From Auraticoccus cholistanensis (GTDB taxonomy: Bacteria > Actinomycetota > Actinomycetes > Propionibacteriales > Propionibacteriaceae), in the NCBI RefSeq assembly GCF_009742705.1, contig NZ_WPCU01000005.1, forward strand, positions 425,370 to 489,369: a DNA stretch of 64,000 nt, written 5' to 3'. Position numbers and translations under genes: made by a program. This document shows, piece by piece, positions 24,252 through 32,350 of the stretch. The number at the start of each line of letters is the position of its first letter. Position 1 is the first letter of the stretch. The notes below the pieces were generated by a model. That model saw only the letters and a program-made list of their open reading frames with translations. It was not told the origin of the DNA and made no database searches.

Positions 24252-26624
24252 TCACCGGCGCCTCGGCAGGCTCCAGCGGGGCAGCTGGGCGCTGGCCCGC
24301 CACTCCACGATGGACCACTGCTGGGCGTTGGCGGCCCGCATCAGCGCGACGTCGGGGCTGACCACCACCGGGTTGCCGACCACCGACAGCATCGGCAGGT
24401 CGACGTGGCTGTCGGCGTAGGCGTGGCTGCGGCTCAGGTCGATGTCGTTCAGCGCGGCGTAGTGGCGCAGCCAGGCGGCGCGGGACTCCCCCACCATGGG
24501 CGGGCCGGTGAGGAAGCCGGTGCAGCGCCCCGAGTCGTCGGTGGCCAGGTCGGAGGCCACCACGACGTCGAACAGCGGCTCCAGCGGCCGGGTCAGCGGG
24601 CGGATCGCACCGGTGATCAGCACGGTGGTGTGCCCGGCGGCGCGGTGCTCGCGGAGCCGGCGGACGGCGTCCGGGGACACCCGCTCGAGGATCCAGGAGG
24701 CCATCGTGGTGTCGACGAACTGCTCCAGCTGGGCCAGGTCGGCGCCGGCGTAGCGGCGGTAGACCGAGCGCAGGAAGGTGCCGCGGTCGCGCCGCTCGGC
24801 CCGCAGCCACATCGGCAGCCGCCGGGCCACGTCGCCCACCTCGCGGGCGCGGGCCAGCGGCCCCAGCTCGGGCAGCCGGGCCCACAGGTAGGTCTCGACC
24901 ACGTTGCTGGCCATCACGGTGCCGTCGAGGTCGAAGGCGGCCAGCACGCGGGCGCCGTCCGGCTCGCCGCCCAGCTCCTTGTAGGTGCGCGGGCGCTGGC
25001 CCCGGCGGCGGCGGACGGAGTCCATCCGGCGCACCGGCTCGGTGATGGAGGGGCAGTGCACGTCCTGCAGGTAGGTGCGCCAGTCGTAGGCCGCGGAGTC
25101 GAAGGCGAAGGCCTCCACGTCGTCGGGGTGCAGGCTGCGGTGCAGCGCGAGGGTGTTGTCGTCGACGAAGTGCAGCTCGGACTGGCCGTACTCGTTGTAC
25201 AGCGACAGGTAGCGGCGCAGGAACGTCAGCTCCTTGGTGGTGCGGTCCAGCCCCTGGGCGAGGGTGCGGATCCGCTTGGAGCGGGGCGCCAGCGAGATGG
25301 CCCGGTGCGCCACCGAGGCGGCCCGCTCGGAGGTGAACAGCAGCCGCTCGACCGAGGCCGCGCCCGGGAAGTCCCACTCCGGCAGCCGCGCCGCCCCGCG
25401 CGGGCCGCCCTCGAAGGGGTGCTGCAGGAAGTACTCGCGGACGTGGGAGTAGAGGTCGCGGAAGTTCAACGGGTTCCGGGCGCCGGAGCTGGAGTGGTAG
25501 TACACCGGCTGGCCGACCTCGGGCTCGGTGGCGCAGACCGCGACGATGGCGTTGACCACGAAGTCGCAGGGCACGATGTCGACCACCGAGTCCGGCGAGG
25601 CCGGGAACTCGGGCAGCTGGCCCTTGCCGTAGGCCAGGATCAGCGGCTCGGCCATCTTGAAGCCCTCGATCCAGCCCGGGTAGGGGTGCTTCCAGGAGGA
25701 CTCGACGATGGCCGGGCGGACGATGGAGACGCGGATGTCCTTGCCGACCTCGGCCACCACCTTCTCCCCCAGCGCCTTGGTGAAGGTGTAGACGTCGGTC
25801 CAGCCCAGCGAGCGGGCCCGCTCGGTGCCGGCCTCCACCAGCTTGCGCTGCACCCACTCCCGGCGCCGCCGCTCGGTGTCGGCGGCGGTCGTCAGGTAGC
25901 CGGCCTGCCGGTGCTCCCGCTCGGCCTCCTTGCGCAGCCGGGTCAGCTGCTCGGCGGTGCGGGACTGGGCCTCGATGAGCTCGAGCATGGCCAGCCCGCG
26001 CTCGGTCTCGGCCTGCGGGTCGACGTCGTGCTCGTGGGCGGCCTCGCGGATCGCCCCGCGACGCCGGCCGGCGGTGTAGGCGGTGGAGATGTGGACGTAG
26101 TGCGGGATCCGGGTCCGCTCGCCGTCGGGGCCGGTGACCGCGGCCAGCATCTTCTCCATCAGCGCCCGGGTGCCGATGGTGTTGGTGCGGAAGGCCTGGT
26201 CGATCGGCGGGTCGAAGGAGACGTCGCCGGCGCAGTGCAGCACCACGTCGAGGTCCGCCGGCAGGTCGGGCACGTTGGGCAGGTCGCCCTCGATCACCCG
26301 GATGCGGGCGTCCAGCAGCGCCTCGGCGCCGCCGGCGGCCTCACGCAGCTCGCTGAAGATCTTCTTCTTCAGCAGCGCCACGACGCGGTCGCGGGCCGGC
26401 GTGGAGCCCTTGCGGCGGACCAGCAGCGCGGGCGTGGTGTCGGGCAGCTCGGTGAGCATCTTCCACAGGATCTGCTCGCCGATGAAGCCGGTGACGCCGG
26501 TCAGCACGACCACCTTGCCGGCCAGCAGGTCCCGCAGCCGGCCGTCCAGCGTGGGCACCCGGGGCCGGGCGGTGGCGGTCTCGGCGTCGGCCAGCCGGCG
26601 GAAGGCGCTGGCGGGCGCGCTCAC
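24252..26624 (-). CDS. Fatty acyl-CoA reductase fused to a HAD-IB phosphatase
   Basis: A 790-residue two-domain enzyme. Residues 35-530 form an extended short-chain reductase of the fatty acyl-CoA reductase (male sterility) type. The NAD(P) loop is [12 protein letters not shown] (41-52), YTFTK (279-283) is the YxxxK active site, and [18 protein letters not shown] follows. Such domains reduce acyl-CoA or acyl-ACP to alcohols. Residues 562-770 are a HAD subclass IB hydrolase with [11 protein letters not shown] (nucleophile Asp near 565), LITGA, and [11 protein letters not shown] as motif IV. This class includes phosphoserine and lipid phosphate phosphatases. Similar fusions exist in other actinobacteria, but their product is not settled. 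The GTG at 26624 overlaps the priA stop, so it is translationally coupled to histidine synthesis. A 73-base gap precedes the LarA-like gene. Confidence 0.85.
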
Positions 26625-27436
26625 GAGGAGGCCCCGCCGCTCACCGACTCCACCGGCTCACCGGCCGCCACCCGCAGCGCCTCCGGCAGCCGCAGGTCGC
26701 CGACGTAGAGCGCGGTGCCGATGATGGCGCCCTCGACCCCCTGCGGGACGAGCGCGTGCAACGCGGCCACGTCGGCCAGCGTGGTGACCCCGCCGGAGGC
26801 GACGACCGGCTTGTCGGTGCGGGCGCACACCGTGCGCAGCAGCTCCAGGTTGGGTCCGGCGAGCATGCCGTCGGAGGCCACGTCGGTGACGACGAAGCGG
26901 GCGCAGCCGGCCTCGTCCAGACGCTCCAGGGTCTCGGCGAGCTCCCCGCCCTCGCGGGTCCAGCCGCGGGCGGCGAGCCGGGTGCCGCGGACGTCGAGGC
27001 CGACGGCGACGCGGTCGCCGTGCTCGGCGATGACCTCCGCCACCCACTCCGGCTGCTCGAGAGCGGCGGTGCCGATGTTGACCCGCCGGCAGCCGGTGGC
27101 CAGCGCCCGCTCCAGGCTGGCGGTGTCGCGGATGCCGCCGGAGAGCTCGACCTGCAGGTCGACGGCCTCGATCACCCGGGCCAGCACCTCGGCGTTGCTG
27201 CCGCGGCCGAAGGCGGCGTCGAGGTCGACCAGGTGGAGCCAGCGGGCGCCCTCGCGCTGCCAGCGCAGCGCCGCCTCCACCGGGTCGCCGAAGGTCTTCT
27301 CGGTGCCGGCGACCCCCTGGACCAGCTGGACCGCGGAGCCGTCGACGACGTCCACGGCCGGCAGCAGCTCCAGCGCCGGGGCGGCGCCGGGGAGGGAGGG
27401 CTCGGCAGCGGAGGGTCCGGTGGCGTCAGGATGCAC
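26621..27436 (-). CDS. priA: Phosphoribosyl isomerase A (HisA, probably also TrpF activity)
   Basis: A TIM-barrel isomerase of 271 residues that converts ProFAR to PRFAR in histidine synthesis. Typical signatures are [15 protein letters not shown] with the first catalytic Asp, [47 protein letters not shown] with the second Asp, and [13 protein letters not shown]. In actinobacteria this protein usually also isomerises phosphoribosylanthranilate (TrpF). The trp genes in this window include no trpF, in agreement. The N-terminus has about 20 extra residues before the barrel. The GTG at 27436 has AGGG seven bases upstream. The usual hisH neighbour is 4.3 kb away, separated by glycan genes. Confidence 0.93.
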
Positions 27437-27489: not shown

Positions 27490-28470
27490 TCAGGCCCGCC
27501 GGTGCCGGACCCGCTCCAGGAAGCTGTGGGCGTCGCGGGCGCGGGGGCCCGGCACCAGCCAGGACTCGGGCACGTCGAGGCCGGCCACCCGGACGCCGGT
27601 GCCGGCCAGCACCGTGGGCAGGGTGTAGAGGACGGTCGAGGGGAAGCTGAGGACGAGCTCCTCCACGGGGCCGCGGGCCAGCTCGACCTCCAGCGGCAGG
27701 TCGGGGCGCTGCACCTCGACCCCGAGGGAGGCCACGGCGGCCAGCTTGGCCTCCTCCTCGCGGCGGTGGGCCAGGTACCGGCGCAGCCCCTGCTGCTGCA
27801 CGAGCCCCGCGACGGCGTCCAGGTAGGCCTCGCCGCGCACCACCCCCGTCTCCACCAGCGAGGACCCGACCAGAGCGGCGCCGGGCAGCACGGCGGGGTG
27901 GGGGTGGCGGCGGCGCAGCCAGCGGTAGTGGTTGGGGCGGACCCGCAGCCCCAGGTCGTCCAGCGGCATGGCGGTGAACACCTCGAGCCGGCGTCGCCGC
28001 AGCAGGTCGGTGGTGCGGACGGCGCGCCGGTGCTGGCCGCGCCCGGGCGCCGCCACGTGCCAGCGCAGCATCGGCTCACCGGCCTGCATGCGGCTGGCGA
28101 ACTCGATGGTGGCGGTGCCGTCGTCGACGACCACCACCGTCTGCCCGGGGAAGACCGGCAGCAGCGTCTGGATCAGCCCCGAGAAGGGGTCGCCCAGCAC
28201 CAGCCGGCGGGCCCGTGCCACCAGGGGCAGCAGCCGTGCGGCCACCTGGCCGGCGTGCCAGGCGCTGCGCCGTGGTTCCAGCCAGCGGACGTGGACCCTG
28301 GGCCCGCGGACCAGCTCGACGGTGCCGCGGAGCTGGCGCCGTGACTCCTCACGCCACGGCGCCAGCACCACCAGGTCGGCCTCGATGTCGGGAGTGGCCG
28401 AGAGCCACTCCACCGCGTTCAGCAGCTGGGCCGGGCTCTCGACCAGCGCCAGCGTGTCGGTGCGGGTCAC
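27490..28470 (-). CDS. Sialyltransferase-like glycosyltransferase (GT52/polysialyltransferase type)
   Basis: A 326-residue cytosolic glycosyltransferase. It opens with TDTLALVESPAQLLNAVEWL, typical of sialyltransferase-like GT-B proteins near NeuB genes. VVVVDDGTATIEFA fits the D/E-D/E-G motif of bacterial sialyltransferases. YLAHRREEEAKL occupies the place of the HP motif, but without the proline. LVLSFPSTVLYTLP provides the Ser/Thr motif that contacts the CMP phosphate in the family. It would add a nonulosonic acid or similar sugar to a surface glycan. It starts 17 bases after neuB, so the two form an operon. The donor sugar is not known because no CMP-sugar synthetase is encoded nearby. 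Confidence 0.68.
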   Translation of the reverse strand: MTRTDTLALVESPAQLLNAVEWLSATPDIEADLVVLAPWREESRRQLRGTVELVRGPRVHVRWLEPRRSAWHAGQVAARLLPLVARARRLVLGDPFSGLIQTLLPVFPGQTVVVVDDGTATIEFASRMQAGEPMLRWHVAAPGRGQHRRAVRTTDLLRRRRLEVFTAMPLDDLGLRVRPNHYRWLRRRHPHPAVLPGAALVGSSLVETGVVRGEAYLDAVAGLVQQQGLRRYLAHRREEEAKLAAVASLGVEVQRPDLPLEVELARGPVEELVLSFPSTVLYTLPTVLAGTGVRVAGLDVPESWLVPGPRARDAHSFLERVRHRRA

Positions 28471-28487
28471 CCCCGGGGTGCGCGGGC

Positions 28488-29381
28488 TCAGACGCCGGCG
28501 CCGACCCGGCGCAGCTTCTTCATCGCGGCGAGCTCGCCCTCGTAGATCTTCTTGACGCCGTCGCCGCGGGCGGCCTCGATGACCCGGATGTCGCGGACCA
28601 GCCGCTCCAGCCCGCCCGGCTCCACCGAGGCGGCCTGGTCCGAGCCCCACATGGCCCGGTCCAGGGTGATGTGGCGCTCGACGAAGCAGGCGCCCAGGGC
28701 GACCGCGGCCAGGGTGGTCTGCAGCCCGGTCTCGTGCCCGGAGTAGCCGATCGGCACGTTGGGGTACTCGGCGCGGAGCGTGTTGATCATCCGCAGGTTC
28801 AGCTCCTCCGGCTTGGCCGGGTAGGTGCTGGTGGCGTGCAGCAGCACGATGTTGCTGCTGCCGAGCACCTCGACGGCGTGGCGGATCTGCTCCGGGGTGG
28901 ACATGCCGGTCGAGAGCACCACGGTGCGCCCGGTGGCCCGCATCCGGCGCAGCAGCTCGTCGTCGGTCAGCGAGGCCGAGGCCACCTTGTAGGCGGGCAC
29001 GTCGAACTCCTCGAGGAAGTCGACCGACTCCACGTCCCAGGGCGAGGCGAACCAGTGGATGCCCAGCTGCTTGCAGTAGGCGTCGATCTGGGCGTACTCC
29101 TCGTGGCCGAACTCGACGCGGTGGCGGTACTCGATGTAGGTCATCCGGCCCCAGGGGGTGTCGCGCTCCACGTCCCACTGGTCCCGCGGGGTGCAGACCT
29201 CGGGGGTCCGCTTCTGGAACTTCACGGCGTCGCAGCCGGCCGCCACGGCGGCGTCGATCAGGGCCATCGCGTTGCGCAGCTCGCCGTTGTGGTTGATGCC
29301 GATCTCGGCGCACACGTAGACGGGGTGGTCGGCCCCCAGCACGCGGTCGCCGATGGTGCGGGTGGGCTGAGCGATGCTCAT
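28488..29381 (-). CDS. neuB: NeuB-family N-acetylneuraminate synthase lacking the SAF domain
   Basis: A 297-residue TIM-barrel enzyme of the NeuB family, which joins phosphoenolpyruvate to an N-acyl hexosamine to make a nonulosonic acid. Signatures are VYVCAEIGINHNGELRNAMAL, CDAVKFQKR, YCKQLGIHWFASPWDVESVDF, YKVASASLTD, VLSTGMSTPEQI, LLHATSTYPAKPEELNL and IGYSGHETGLQTTL. The barrel is complete. Classic NeuB enzymes run to about 340-350 residues and end with an antifreeze-like SAF domain that completes the neighbouring active site; this protein stops right after the barrel (KIYEGELAAMKKLRRVGAGV). The ATG at 29381 has GAGG six bases upstream. No neuA or neuC homologue is in the window. Confidence 0.85.
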   Translation of the reverse strand: MSIAQPTRTIGDRVLGADHPVYVCAEIGINHNGELRNAMALIDAAVAAGCDAVKFQKRTPEVCTPRDQWDVERDTPWGRMTYIEYRHRVEFGHEEYAQIDAYCKQLGIHWFASPWDVESVDFLEEFDVPAYKVASASLTDDELLRRMRATGRTVVLSTGMSTPEQIRHAVEVLGSSNIVLLHATSTYPAKPEELNLRMINTLRAEYPNVPIGYSGHETGLQTTLAAVALGACFVERHITLDRAMWGSDQAASVEPGGLERLVRDIRVIEAARGDGVKKIYEGELAAMKKLRRVGAGV

Positions 29382-29529
29382 GGTGGTCCTCTCCAGCGGT
29401 TCTTCAGGTCCCTCCAGAAAACACACCCGCGACCGTGCCGGAGGGCCTGGAGCGGGCTCCCGGAGGCCTTTTCACCACCTGTTCACGGACTCGTCACCGA
29501 CGACGCCCCGACCGTCCACCGGGGCCGCT

Positions 29530-29535
29530 TAGACA
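29530..29535 (+). promoter_or_regulatory. -10 element for the leaderless glycosyltransferase gene
   Basis: TAGACA ends six bases before the GTG at 29542. The 160-base gap 29382-29541 between this gene and neuB is a divergent promoter region with a relatively AT-rich patch near 29470 and no coding potential. Confidence 0.4.
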
Positions 29536-29541
29536 GCTACC

Positions 29542-30528
29542 GTGAGCACTCGTGTCGCAGGACCCCAGCAGCACCCCGGCGCCCGGCTGACCGTCGTGGT
29601 CCCGGTGCTGTCGTCGGGGGCGAACACCACCGCCAAGACGCTGCTGCGCGGCACCGACGAGCGGGTGGAGCACCTGGTGGTGGACGCCACCGCCGACGCC
29701 GACCCCCGTGGCCGGATGCAGCGCGCCGTCGGGCGGCTGCCCCGCAGCCGGGCCGCGGCGATCCACGACCGGACCGCCGGGCCGGGCCGCCGGCGGGCCG
29801 AGGCGATCGCCCTGGCGCTGGCCGACCTGCGCACCGACTGGGTCACCGTGGTCGACGCCGGCGACTTCGTCGCCCCCGGCTTCCACCTGCGCGTGCTGGA
29901 GGCGGCCGAGCAGCTGGGCGCCCCGCTGGTGGGCTTCGGCCACACCCGGGTGCGCGGCCCCGTGCGGGTGCCCGAGCCGGCGACCGAGGACAGCTCCGGC
30001 GTCGTGGTCGCCCCGGCCTGGCGGGGCCTGGTGGGCCGCGGCCACCGGGTCGGACGGCTCTGGTCGCAGCTGGTGCACCGCTCGCTGCTGGACTCCCCCG
30101 GCGCGCCGGTCCCCGACGTCCGCCTGCACCACGGCGCGGACCACCTGCTGGGCTGGGCGCTGCACCTGGCGGCCGGCTCCAGCGCCCTGGTCGAGGTGCC
30201 GGGCTACTACCGCACCGTCCACGGCGACGCCGACACCTCCGAGGAGGCGCTGCTGGGCCGCGTCCGCGGCCACCAGCAGGCGATCGACCTGGCCCGCGGC
30301 CACATCCGCGCCGACGTGCTGGTGCCCGAGGCCGTCCGCGCCGCGCTGCGGATGATCTGCCGGCTGGTGCTGGCCGACCTCGACGCCGGCTCCCGGCCCC
30401 GGCCGCGGCTGGTGGAGCTGGCCGACGAGGTGATGACCGGGGTGGGCCGCCGCACCCTGGACGCCGCCCGCGCCGGGCTGGAACCGGGCGACCAGCGGCT
30501 GCTCGCCGCGCTGCGGCCGGCCGCCTGA
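29542..30528 (+). CDS. Family 2-like (GT-A) glycosyltransferase
   Basis: A 328-residue nucleotide-sugar glycosyltransferase. The N-terminal LTVVVPVLSSGA strand begins a GT-A fold. VTVVDAGDFVAPGF places two aspartates (105 and 108) in the metal-binding position. The acceptor half has LVGRGHRVGRLWSQLVHRSLL and HHGADHLLGWALHLA. It ends in a helical domain with no membrane segment. The sugar used is not predictable. The gene is divergent from neuB and is followed one base after its stop by a polysialyltransferase-like gene, so both should be transcribed together. The GTG start is supported by the -10 six bases upstream rather than by a ribosome binding site. Confidence 0.75.
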   Translation: MSTRVAGPQQHPGARLTVVVPVLSSGANTTAKTLLRGTDERVEHLVVDATADADPRGRMQRAVGRLPRSRAAAIHDRTAGPGRRRAEAIALALADLRTDWVTVVDAGDFVAPGFHLRVLEAAEQLGAPLVGFGHTRVRGPVRVPEPATEDSSGVVVAPAWRGLVGRGHRVGRLWSQLVHRSLLDSPGAPVPDVRLHHGADHLLGWALHLAAGSSALVEVPGYYRTVHGDADTSEEALLGRVRGHQQAIDLARGHIRADVLVPEAVRAALRMICRLVLADLDAGSRPRPRLVELADEVMTGVGRRTLDAARAGLEPGDQRLLAALRPAA

Positions 30529-30529
30529 G

Positions 30530-31723
30530 GTGGTCACCACCCCCACGCCGGGCACCCTCCTCGTCCTCGTCCCGCACAGCACCGCCTGGCTGTTCGTCAC
30601 CGCCGCGCTGCGGGCCGGGCTGCTCGGCCACCCCGAGCGGCTGGTGCTGGTCACCACCTCCCAGTCGGGGGTCCCCGAGGCCGGCGACGAGCTGCGTCGC
30701 ACGCTCGGCTGGGACCGGCTCAACACCGACGTGGACGTGGTGCTGGACCACGACGAGCTGGTGGCCCCGCACCACCCGCTGGGGTGGACGCCGACGACGC
30801 CGGCCGAGCTGGCCCGCTGGCGCGAGCTGCTCCTGCAGCGGGCCGGGCTGGGCGGCGGGCCGGTGCGGCTGCTGCTGCGCGACCTCCACCTGGCCCCGGC
30901 CCGCACGCTGGCCGCGGCCCTGCCCGAGGCGGCGGTGGACGTCTACGCCGAGGACCTGTCCGCCTGGGCCGCCACCCCCACCGTGCTGGAGCCCTCGGTG
31001 GCGGGCCGGGTGGGACGTCTGCTGCACGTCGACCTGTGGCCCGGCCTGATCCCGCGGCTGCTGGCCGAGACCGGCTGCCGCCCGGTGGCGCTCGACCCGG
31101 CGCAGCTGCGGGCGCTGGCGGGCGAGGTGGCACCACCGTCCGAGCCGGGCCGAGGACGGGTGGCGGTGCTGGTCGAGGAGGACCTCGCCGGTCTCGGGCT
31201 GGACGAGGAGGAGGTGGCCGCCCTGGTCGCGCGCCAGCTGGCCGCCGCCCACGCGGCGGGGGCCGACCGGGTGCGGGCGGTGCGCGACCCGCTGCCGGCG
31301 CTGGGCAGCGACTCCGAGGCGCTGGCCGAGGCCGGGCTGGTGGAGCTCGACGAGGACGCGGTGCCGCTGGCCGCGGTGCTGGCCGCCGACCCGGTGGTCG
31401 TGGTGGGGTGCCGCTCCACCCTGCTGCTCACCGCCGGGGTGCCGGCGGTGGCCGTCCAGCCGGAGGGGGTGCTGGAGCGGCTGCGGCCGTGGGCGCACCC
31501 CTCCCGGCTGCCGCTCGTGCTGACGGCGCTGCGCTGCGGGCCGGACGCACCGGCGGCCGGGCTGGCCGAGGTCCAGCAGCTGGTGGACGCGCTGGCCCAC
31601 ACCACGCAGCCGGCGCTGCACCCGGCCGGGGCGACCCCGGCCCGGGCGCTGGCGGCGGAGCGGCCCGGGCTCGCGGAGCGCTTCCTGCTGCCGGGGAACC
31701 CGCTGGTGGGCTCAGCCGGCTGA
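30530..31723 (+). CDS. Polysialyltransferase-family glycosyltransferase
   Basis: A 397-residue protein resembling bacterial alpha-2,8-polysialyltransferase family enzymes. The N-terminus LLVLVPHSTAWLFVTAALRA is the usual family opening. VRLLLRDLHLAPARTLAAAL and DVYAEDLSAWA follow. The C-terminal half contains VVVVGCRSTLLLTAGVPAVAV, in which RST matches the Ser/Thr donor-phosphate motif. It probably extends or caps a surface glycan with the sugar made by the neighbouring NeuB (inference). The GTG at 30530 follows the previous stop by one base, without a clear ribosome binding site, so translation is coupled. Its stop overlaps the convergent hisH stop by 12 bases. Confidence 0.7.
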   Translation: MVTTPTPGTLLVLVPHSTAWLFVTAALRAGLLGHPERLVLVTTSQSGVPEAGDELRRTLGWDRLNTDVDVVLDHDELVAPHHPLGWTPTTPAELARWRELLLQRAGLGGGPVRLLLRDLHLAPARTLAAALPEAAVDVYAEDLSAWAATPTVLEPSVAGRVGRLLHVDLWPGLIPRLLAETGCRPVALDPAQLRALAGEVAPPSEPGRGRVAVLVEEDLAGLGLDEEEVAALVARQLAAAHAAGADRVRAVRDPLPALGSDSEALAEAGLVELDEDAVPLAAVLAADPVVVVGCRSTLLLTAGVPAVAVQPEGVLERLRPWAHPSRLPLVLTALRCGPDAPAAGLAEVQQLVDALAHTTQPALHPAGATPARALAAERPGLAERFLLPGNPLVGSAG

Positions 31724-31724
31724 G
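31711..31724. repeat. Perfect 14-bp palindrome spanning two convergent stop codons
   Basis: CTCAGCCGGCTGAG contains the hisH TGA on one strand and the polysialyltransferase TGA on the other. It may act as a short bidirectional terminator, though a 14-bp palindrome without a loop is a weak one. Confidence 0.4.
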
Positions 31725-32350
31725 CCGAGCGAGCCCACCCAGTTGGCCAGCAGCGCGGCCCCGGCCCGCCCCGACTTCTCGGGGTGGAACTGGGTGGCCG
31801 CGACCGGGCCCTGCTCGATGCCGGCCACGAACACGTCCCCCTGGTGCTCCGCGGTGGTCACCACGGCGCCCTCCCGGCGCAGCCGCTCGACGTCGCGGAC
31901 GCCGTAGGAGTGCACGAAGTAGAACCGCTCGTCCTCGACGCGGGCGAACAGCCGCGACCGCGGGTCGGCCTGCACGGTGTTCCAGCCCATGTGCGGCAGC
32001 CGGGTGGCGCGGACCTGCTCGACCACGCCCGGCCAGATCCCGCACCCCTCGGTGCGGACCCCGTGCTCGATGCCGGCCTCGAAGAGGATCTGCGCCCCCA
32101 CGCAGATGCCCAGCGTGGGCAGCCCGGCGTCGCGGCGCTCGCGGACCACCTCGTCGCCGCCGATGCGGCGCAGGCCCTCCATGCAGGCGGCGAAGGCGCC
32201 GACCCCGGGCACCACCAGCCCCGGCGCGCTGCGGGCGCGGTCGGGGTCGGTGGTCACCTCGACCCGGGCCCCGGTCGCCTGCAGCGCCCGCTCCGCGGAG
32301 TGCAGGTTGCCCGAGCCGTAGTCGAGCAGCACGACCTCCGGGGTGCTCAC
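31712..32350 (-). CDS. hisH: Imidazole glycerol phosphate synthase, glutamine amidotransferase subunit
   Basis: A 212-residue class I amidotransferase that releases ammonia from glutamine for HisF during histidine synthesis. The catalytic cysteine is C83 in [13 protein letters not shown], and the His/Glu partners lie in [28 protein letters not shown] opens the family fold. The oxyanion segment [13 protein letters not shown] is present. The GTG at 32350 overlaps the hisB stop as GTGA. HisF, its obligate partner, is not in the window. hisH is normally followed by priA; here a glycan block intervenes. Confidence 0.96.

Follow-up and report, generated by a model that had tools for sequence, protein, structure and literature searches.

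What is made by a nonulosonate synthase and three glycosyltransferase-like proteins whose genes sit inside a histidine biosynthesis locus, and where does their activated sugar come from? The question is raised by a window of 64,000 nucleotides (the whole stretch of DNA analysed here) from Auraticoccus cholistanensis of the Propionibacteriaceae, which is part of contig C17 (NZ_WPCU01000005.1, positions 425,370 to 489,369) of a 3.80-Mb genome that is 99.98% complete. As the initial annotation of this sequence had described, four open reading frames (ORFs) lie there in two divergent pairs between hisA/priA and hisH: the nonulosonate synthase NeuB with a sialyltransferase-like protein (here called A), and a glycosyltransferase (GT) with a polysialyltransferase-like protein (D). 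They are genuine genes and not chance ORFs, since a sister species (G001) has colinear homologues, each with a nonsynonymous substitution rate (dN) below the synonymous one (dS).

The initial annotation saw in these genes an unrecognized surface-glycan pathway that borrows its activating enzyme from elsewhere. Here, we argue that the block is very likely part of a teichulosonic-acid-type pathway that is distributed among three or more places in the genome and for which we infer substrates, product, and regulation. The orphan-looking block is thereby tied to a defined wall-polymer pathway, and its seemingly missing activating enzyme is located.

The activating enzyme and the Streptomyces gene set

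That the block holds no NeuA, as initially noted, is correct for the block and incorrect for the genome. The genome-wide search proposed at that time for a cytidine monophosphate (CMP)-sugar synthetase found one, fused to a haloacid dehalogenase (HAD)-type phosphatase (neuA-HAD), at C17:524132-525442, which is 67 kb from the near end of the block and 35 kb past the end of the window. Its product passes the Pfam models CTP_transf_3 and Hydrolase_3 and carries the motifs ARGGSQGVPGKN, DFDGVHT, and GNDLND, which we take to be of CMP-sugar synthetase and HAD type. Convergent with it is a gene of the family DUF6716 (PF20471, 423 bits; locus C17:524132-526529), a term of which the papers searched make no mention. 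The same convergent pair is found in nine of thirteen further neuA-HAD loci (L139-L147); in the other four, DUF6716 is on the same strand (G008, G058, and G076) or was not seen in the stretch (G007). The genome's only other CTP_transf_3 match (C2:275738, 29 bits), considered as a rival activating enzyme, proved to be a fusion of IspD (195.6 bits) and IspF (163.3 bits) and was rejected.

The same genes are brought together in Streptomyces. A NeuB-family profile scan of named genomes, from which records very near the source genome were possibly omitted, gave at least 80 loci, 79 in Streptomyces and 1 in Actinacidiphila. Fifty-seven of the 80 loci listed exceed 20.8 kb, and in these neuA-HAD, DUF6716, NeuB, and A are always present (57/57) and D nearly so (53/57). 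The order D-, (GT-), DUF6716+, neuA-HAD+, NeuB+, A+ holds in 61 of the 80; in the remaining 19, D or more is missing from the stretch, or the strand or order of D is different. These loci are interrelated, and the counts are not independent tests. In Streptomyces tendae (L102), D reaches 85.8 bits with Pfam A-2_8-polyST, the GT beside it is a GT2 protein (119 bits), and DUF6716 scores 365.5 bits.

This set appears to have a published counterpart in Streptomyces coelicolor. In the portion of PMC2267785 used here, SCO4877-4881 are listed with genes that behave like phosphate-starvation genes, neuAB are named, and the products are described as hypothetical (SCO4877), glycosyltransferase (SCO4878), conserved hypothetical (SCO4879), transferase (SCO4880), and polysaccharide biosynthesis (SCO4881). 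A table of PMC8269224 has the counterparts of SCO4877, SCO4878 (GT2), SCO4879, SCO4880, and SCO4882 as activated and names that of SCO4880 a sialic acid synthase, at odds with PMC2267785. An excerpt of PMC13011467 gives SCO4873-4882 as teichulosonic-acid genes under PhoP, and passages of PMC11481543 and PMC7831098 describe the teichulosonic-acid polymer as phosphate-free and composed of galactose and 2-keto-3-deoxynononic acid (Kdn).

A and NeuB belong to this set of D, GT, DUF6716, neuA-HAD, neuB, and A, which fits SCO4877-4882; the correspondence is by gene order and description, and the sequences compared come from Streptomyces species other than S. coelicolor. All six set genes are present in the genome analysed here, split over three loci (his, C17:524132-526529, and C5) rather than contiguous in two divergent groups. 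The pathway is not an unrecognized one, because Streptomyces has the same genes side by side, in agreement with the published teichulosonic-acid region. The remainder of the initial description, a surface-glycan pathway with its activating enzyme elsewhere, stands, except that the enzyme is not borrowed: neuA-HAD belongs to the gene set, being present in 15 of 15 relatives that bear A.

This last count comes from a sample of 96 related genomes, which was complemented by 198 genomes sampled evenly across the phylum, the source genome being counted in both. Absences in these large searches are softer, since only part of the first-look candidates was scored (e.g. 10 of 58). Among the 96 relatives, A was found in 15 and D-like proteins in 11, all of them among those 15; neuA-HAD was matched across both halves in 18, including every genome with A, and gave some match in 24. 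NeuB of at least 74% identity accompanies A in 14 of the 15 genomes, and the fusion occurs without A in G007, G058, and G076, where a NeuB of 60-61% identity lies beside it. In the phylum sample, A was found in 6 genomes and neuA-HAD in 8, the 6 included. The loci of G058 and G076 (L150 and L151) hold neuA-HAD, this NeuB, and DUF6716, and neither A nor D was detected there; upstream lies a PHO-type three-unit site that is the best of its stretch, and the smaller set may represent the pathway in reduced form.

The position of A varies among the 15 genomes. In eight of them (G000, G001, G009, G015, G018, G019, G037, and G040; G000 is the source genome, placed from the window), hisA and hisH were both seen to flank it; in three (G003, G014, and G055) it is near hisA, with only that side in view, and in four (G008, G017, G039, and G049) it is elsewhere. 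DUF6716, neuA-HAD, NeuB, and A are contiguous in G017, G039, and G049. The last of these has its set at another place, and its hisA and hisH overlap by four bases; this one empty site supports an insertion between hisH and hisA.

Sugar donor, putative transferase, and promoter sites

The label of NeuB is confirmed by Pfam (NeuB, 279 bits against a cut-off of 22.1), and its identity to Streptomyces NeuB is 78-82% among the matches listed. Its best NCBIfam match is the N-acetylneuraminate synthase model TIGR03569 (260.5 bits, below the cut-off of 399.65), and from this, together with the resemblance of the A and D models to a polysialyltransferase, one might expect a classical polysialic acid capsule with N-acetylneuraminic acid as the donor. 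We consider this very improbable: the corresponding region of Streptomyces has been linked to a Kdn polymer, NeuB has no SAF domain, and neither a NeuC-type (PF02350) nor a NanE (PF04131) epimerase was matched in the 99.98% complete genome, with controls positive in 11/14 and 8/14, respectively. The epimerase result therefore favours Kdn over N-acetylneuraminate, and the initial suggestion that the donor may not be classical sialic acid is probably right. Another nonulosonate, of pseudaminic or legionaminic type and made via other enzymes, is a highly unlikely donor as well; NeuB does score 215.9 bits to the pseudaminic acid synthase model, but this is below the cut-off of 340.25 and lower than its score to the NeuB model, and its identity to Streptomyces NeuB argues against such a sugar.

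For the transfer of Kdn, A is the best candidate in the set, judging from its structure model (predicted local distance difference test [pLDDT] score 89.8, predicted template modelling score 0.88). The five top Foldseek entries are the Neisseria lipooligosaccharide (LOS) sialyltransferase (2yk4-2yk7) and a polysialyltransferase (5wc6), at modest template modelling scores of 0.39-0.51. In the VIA comparison, A aligns with 5wc6 at Z 18.2 over 308 residues (root-mean-square deviation [rmsd] 5.0); after 5wcn, another sialyltransferase follows at 13.4 and non-sialyltransferases begin at 13.2, and the 2yk entries are absent from the top 50. Such a likeness carries no donor information by itself. The motifs of A read VDDGTA, AHRRE, and SFPST, and in an alignment of 36 rows D116-D117-G118, H235-R236, and S275-T279 are invariant, DDGTA and SFPST occurring in 36/36 rows and H-R-R-E/D in 33/36. 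We take the DDG, H, and S-T motifs to be of sialyltransferase type.

The sialyl- and polysialyltransferase likeness first seen in A and D is thus borne out at the level of the fold, and for D also via homologues that pass Pfam A-2_8-polyST (85.8 bits in S. tendae; 58.2 bits at C5 in the same genome). Neither protein reaches the cut-off of any Pfam or NCBIfam family, and their sequence profiles matched nothing among solved chains but two ribosomal entries at chance level (E 0.3). The sialyltransferase families with which A was compared, presumably those numbered GT52 and GT38, match it in fold, without a sequence-family match above the cut-off. A, which has no family above the cut-off, and DUF6716, a ‘putative glycosyltransferase’, are closely tied to a CMP-sugar synthetase, and this tie makes the identity of the Kdn-transferring enzyme directly testable.

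The 115-base divergent promoter between NeuB and GT (29427-29541) contains three 11-nt repeats of PHO type. The site was noticed by eye before any scan was made with the GTTCACC-type consensus, which was later checked against papers. With 17/21 core matches it is the best three-unit site of the window (the next has 14), and the sister species has 19/21. Its two-unit form (12/14 matches) ranks first of 127966 in the window, where 0.26 sites with two mismatches are expected by chance in 64 kb. Genome-wide, 49 sites have at most two mismatches (vs three for a reversed control) and 5 have at most one. One of these five, at C17:524091-524108, has one mismatch and ends about 25 bases 5′ of neuA-HAD, so that GTTCACC-type repeats stand at both the block and the neuA-HAD promoters. 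Others lie between a PhoU gene and a sensor kinase gene, directly 5′ of a PhoD gene, and at an ABC permease gene whose exact start is unsure. The remaining one of the five, a one-mismatch box (L185, G000:C6:100009), stands directly 5′ of a gene whose 540-residue product has a phosphodiester-glycosidase (NAGPA) domain (119.7 bits). In 61 of 71 listed Streptomyces-type loci, the best or joint-best site is at the DUF6716 promoter, where 58 of the 71 score at least 15, vs 22/355 random stretches. The sites at both loci fit a polymer that is made when phosphate is scarce.

In the pathway that we propose, NeuB would form Kdn 9-phosphate from mannose 6-phosphate and phosphoenolpyruvate, the HAD half of neuA-HAD would remove the phosphate, and the NeuA half would make CMP-Kdn. 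A, DUF6716, and an intact GT-D pair at C5 could then assemble a phosphate-free, Kdn-containing wall polymer, and PhoP may switch on both dedicated loci under scarce phosphate. The Streptomyces teichulosonic-acid gene set would, accordingly, extend to another actinobacterial family, in which it is split and yet has PHO-type sites at both promoters.

Several points weigh against this proposal. The identity of the polymer is deduced by homology with Streptomyces, and the search for a phosphomannose isomerase (PF01238) was uninformative, the model being a 48-position C-terminal piece that matches only 2/14 controls. G019 has A, GT, and D in his without this NeuB, and a NeuB of 38% identity elsewhere (L152, G019:C2:869000-883000; L046), which is possibly a replacement; in two of the six A-bearing genomes of the phylum sample, the fusion was matched only from residue 151 or 155 on. 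A GT similar to that of the window is found in just 13 of the 57 listed Streptomyces-type loci that exceed 20.8 kb. As for the promoters, sites of the two-mismatch grade occur 44 times in the genome and somewhere in 24 of 100 shuffled windows, for which reason it is the placement in a 115-base divergent promoter that makes the window site telling. Among loci of related families, the best site is at the NeuB (3) or DUF6716 (2) promoter in just 5/14, and the best PHO-type site lies 5′ of neuA-HAD in only 3/13 loci of relatives.

The GT-D pair of the block

In a rival reading, in line with the initial annotation, all four block genes would work as one unit, with D polymerizing what NeuB and A produce and with GT building the acceptor. 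In favour of this, the layout A-, NeuB-, GT+, D+ recurs in six other genomes (G001, G009, G014, G018, G037, and G055), with motifs intact in five of them (not in G001), and both GT and D are open with dN < dS in the genus. Such a unit is nevertheless unlikely given the state of the pair in both genomes of the genus that were sampled. The GT label rests on a Pfam GT2 score of 15.9 bits, short of the cut-off of 23.3, and GT reads DAGD, not DGDD, in the window and in the sister G001, while D-x-D-D is found in 28/28 other rows with residues at that position (one further row is gapped there). The polysialyltransferase likeness of D holds, but the family motifs are absent from the block's D as they are from its GT: PF07388 does not match D even at E 1, and the DG and HP motifs are lost. 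AED/VDD replaces ADG in the window and the his-locus copy of G001, and DP replaces HP in both. Among 21 other D rows, 18 have ADG, 1 SDG (G008b), 1 ASG (G001rplU_1), and 1 neither (G049b, a poor match); HP is kept in 20 of the 21, G049b being the exception. At E 0.1, Pfam gives no family for either the GT or the D of the G001 his locus.

The same genome has copies with intact motifs at C5, where a D (PF07388, 58.2 bits) stands beside a GT (GT2, 91.6 bits). The intact pair of G001 adjoins the ribosomal L27 and L21 genes. In G015, of another genus, A and NeuB are present and neither GT nor D precedes hisH; its intact GT-D pair adjoins genes that resemble L21/L27 by eye. At the L21/L27 locus of G001 (L055, G001:C1:4296000-4315000), a second, strongly diverged D-like protein is encoded near the intact pair, with ASG for ADG and HP kept.

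Branch lengths and dN/dS also count against a four-gene unit. The D of the window is 58% identical to the D of G001 and 33% to its own C5 copy. Trees do not place the window GT and D, which have very long branches (1.4-2.2) with weak support around them. Among nine genes with a valid comparison between the window genome and the sister species, dN/dS is highest for GT (0.76) and D (0.70), with the intact C5 GT little lower (0.68); the C5 D has 0.49, A 0.47, hisH 0.37, and NeuB 0.19 (NG86 estimates only, from a GC-rich genome pair, with hisA excluded). The structure model of D (pLDDT 82.7) aligns with 5wc6 in VIA at Z 16.0 over 301 residues (rmsd 4.7), epimerases following at 12.8. The fold claim for D is that of VIA, since Foldseek ranked epimerases and plant UDP-glycosyltransferases first and had no polysialyltransferase among the first 50 rows.

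Because GT and D have lost their family motifs and intact copies exist at C5, the ‘polysialyltransferase’ of the window is probably a relic or pseudoenzyme, and the GT-D pair of the block appears from its sequence to be a diverged second pair. A GT-D pair may have been copied and the copy may have taken over, after which G015 would have lost the old pair and the old pair of this genus would be decaying or acquiring a new role. More speculatively, and rather doubtfully, the two could be pseudoenzymes that degenerated together, with reading frames maintained in the genus downstream of a PHO-like box, and that regulate or serve as a scaffold for the machinery of the Kdn polymer, the catalytic copies of which would be those at the other locus, with A founding an unnamed family of CMP-Kdn transferases.

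The block and its likeness to known systems

The features of the block and its flanks are collected in Table 1. In each of the 10 loci of relatives that have A close to hisA, the latter adjoins a gene (24252-26624 in the window, minus strand) for a fusion of a fatty-acyl-reductase-like protein and a HAD protein, which was not found at the set-less his locus of G049 (L056). Its HAD half scores 81 bits to histidinol-phosphatase models, below the cut-off, and the fusion might therefore supply the histidinol-phosphatase step.

Table 1. Features of the block between hisA/priA and hisH (positions in the window).
Feature	Position	Strand	Basis
hisA/priA flank	26621..27436	-	Pfam His_biosynth 229 bits
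Protein A, putative CMP-Kdn transferase (GT-B, sialyltransferase-like), 326 residues	27490..28470	-	Predicted fold and motifs
NeuB, nonulosonate synthase without SAF domain	28488..29426 (likely start 29381)	-	Pfam NeuB 279 bits
PHO-box-like site, three 11-nt GTTCACC-type repeat units	29470..29502	+	Consensus scan, divergent promoter region
GT, diverged GT-A glycosyltransferase, DAGD for DGDD	29542..30528	+	Pfam GT2 15.9 bits, sub-threshold
D, polysialyltransferase-like, without ADG and HP motifs	30530..31723	+	Predicted fold, motif alignment
hisH flank	31712..32350	-	Pfam GATase 72.6 bits

Among solved proteins, the bacterial polysialyltransferase (5wc6/5wcn) and the Neisseria LOS sialyltransferase (2yk4-2yk7) have the GT-B fold in common with the models of A and D, and A has its DDG, H, and S-T motifs in an order similar to that of solved sialyltransferases. 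The differences are that the structural alignments reach only 10-15% identity for A and D and that the window D is without both the DG and the HP motif of the solved polysialyltransferase. NeuB has in common with Neisseria meningitidis NeuB (1xuu) the catalytic domain matched by the family profile, whose alignment with 1xuu (349 residues) stops at residue 283; the C-terminal SAF part of the latter is absent from the window NeuB and 10 other aligned family members.

To the teichulosonic-acid region of S. coelicolor, the likeness consists in the identity of NeuB to Streptomyces proteins, homologues of the same genes, and PHO-type sites at a divergent promoter. Whereas the Streptomyces set is contiguous, here A and NeuB lie inside his, neuA-HAD and DUF6716 lie 67 kb off, and the intact GT-D pair lies at C5; the GT-D pair of the his locus, moreover, is without its families' motifs. 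The pathway is of a known kind, and what is new is that its genes are divided among three loci, that some of them lie inside his, and that the GT-D pair there has lost its family motifs.

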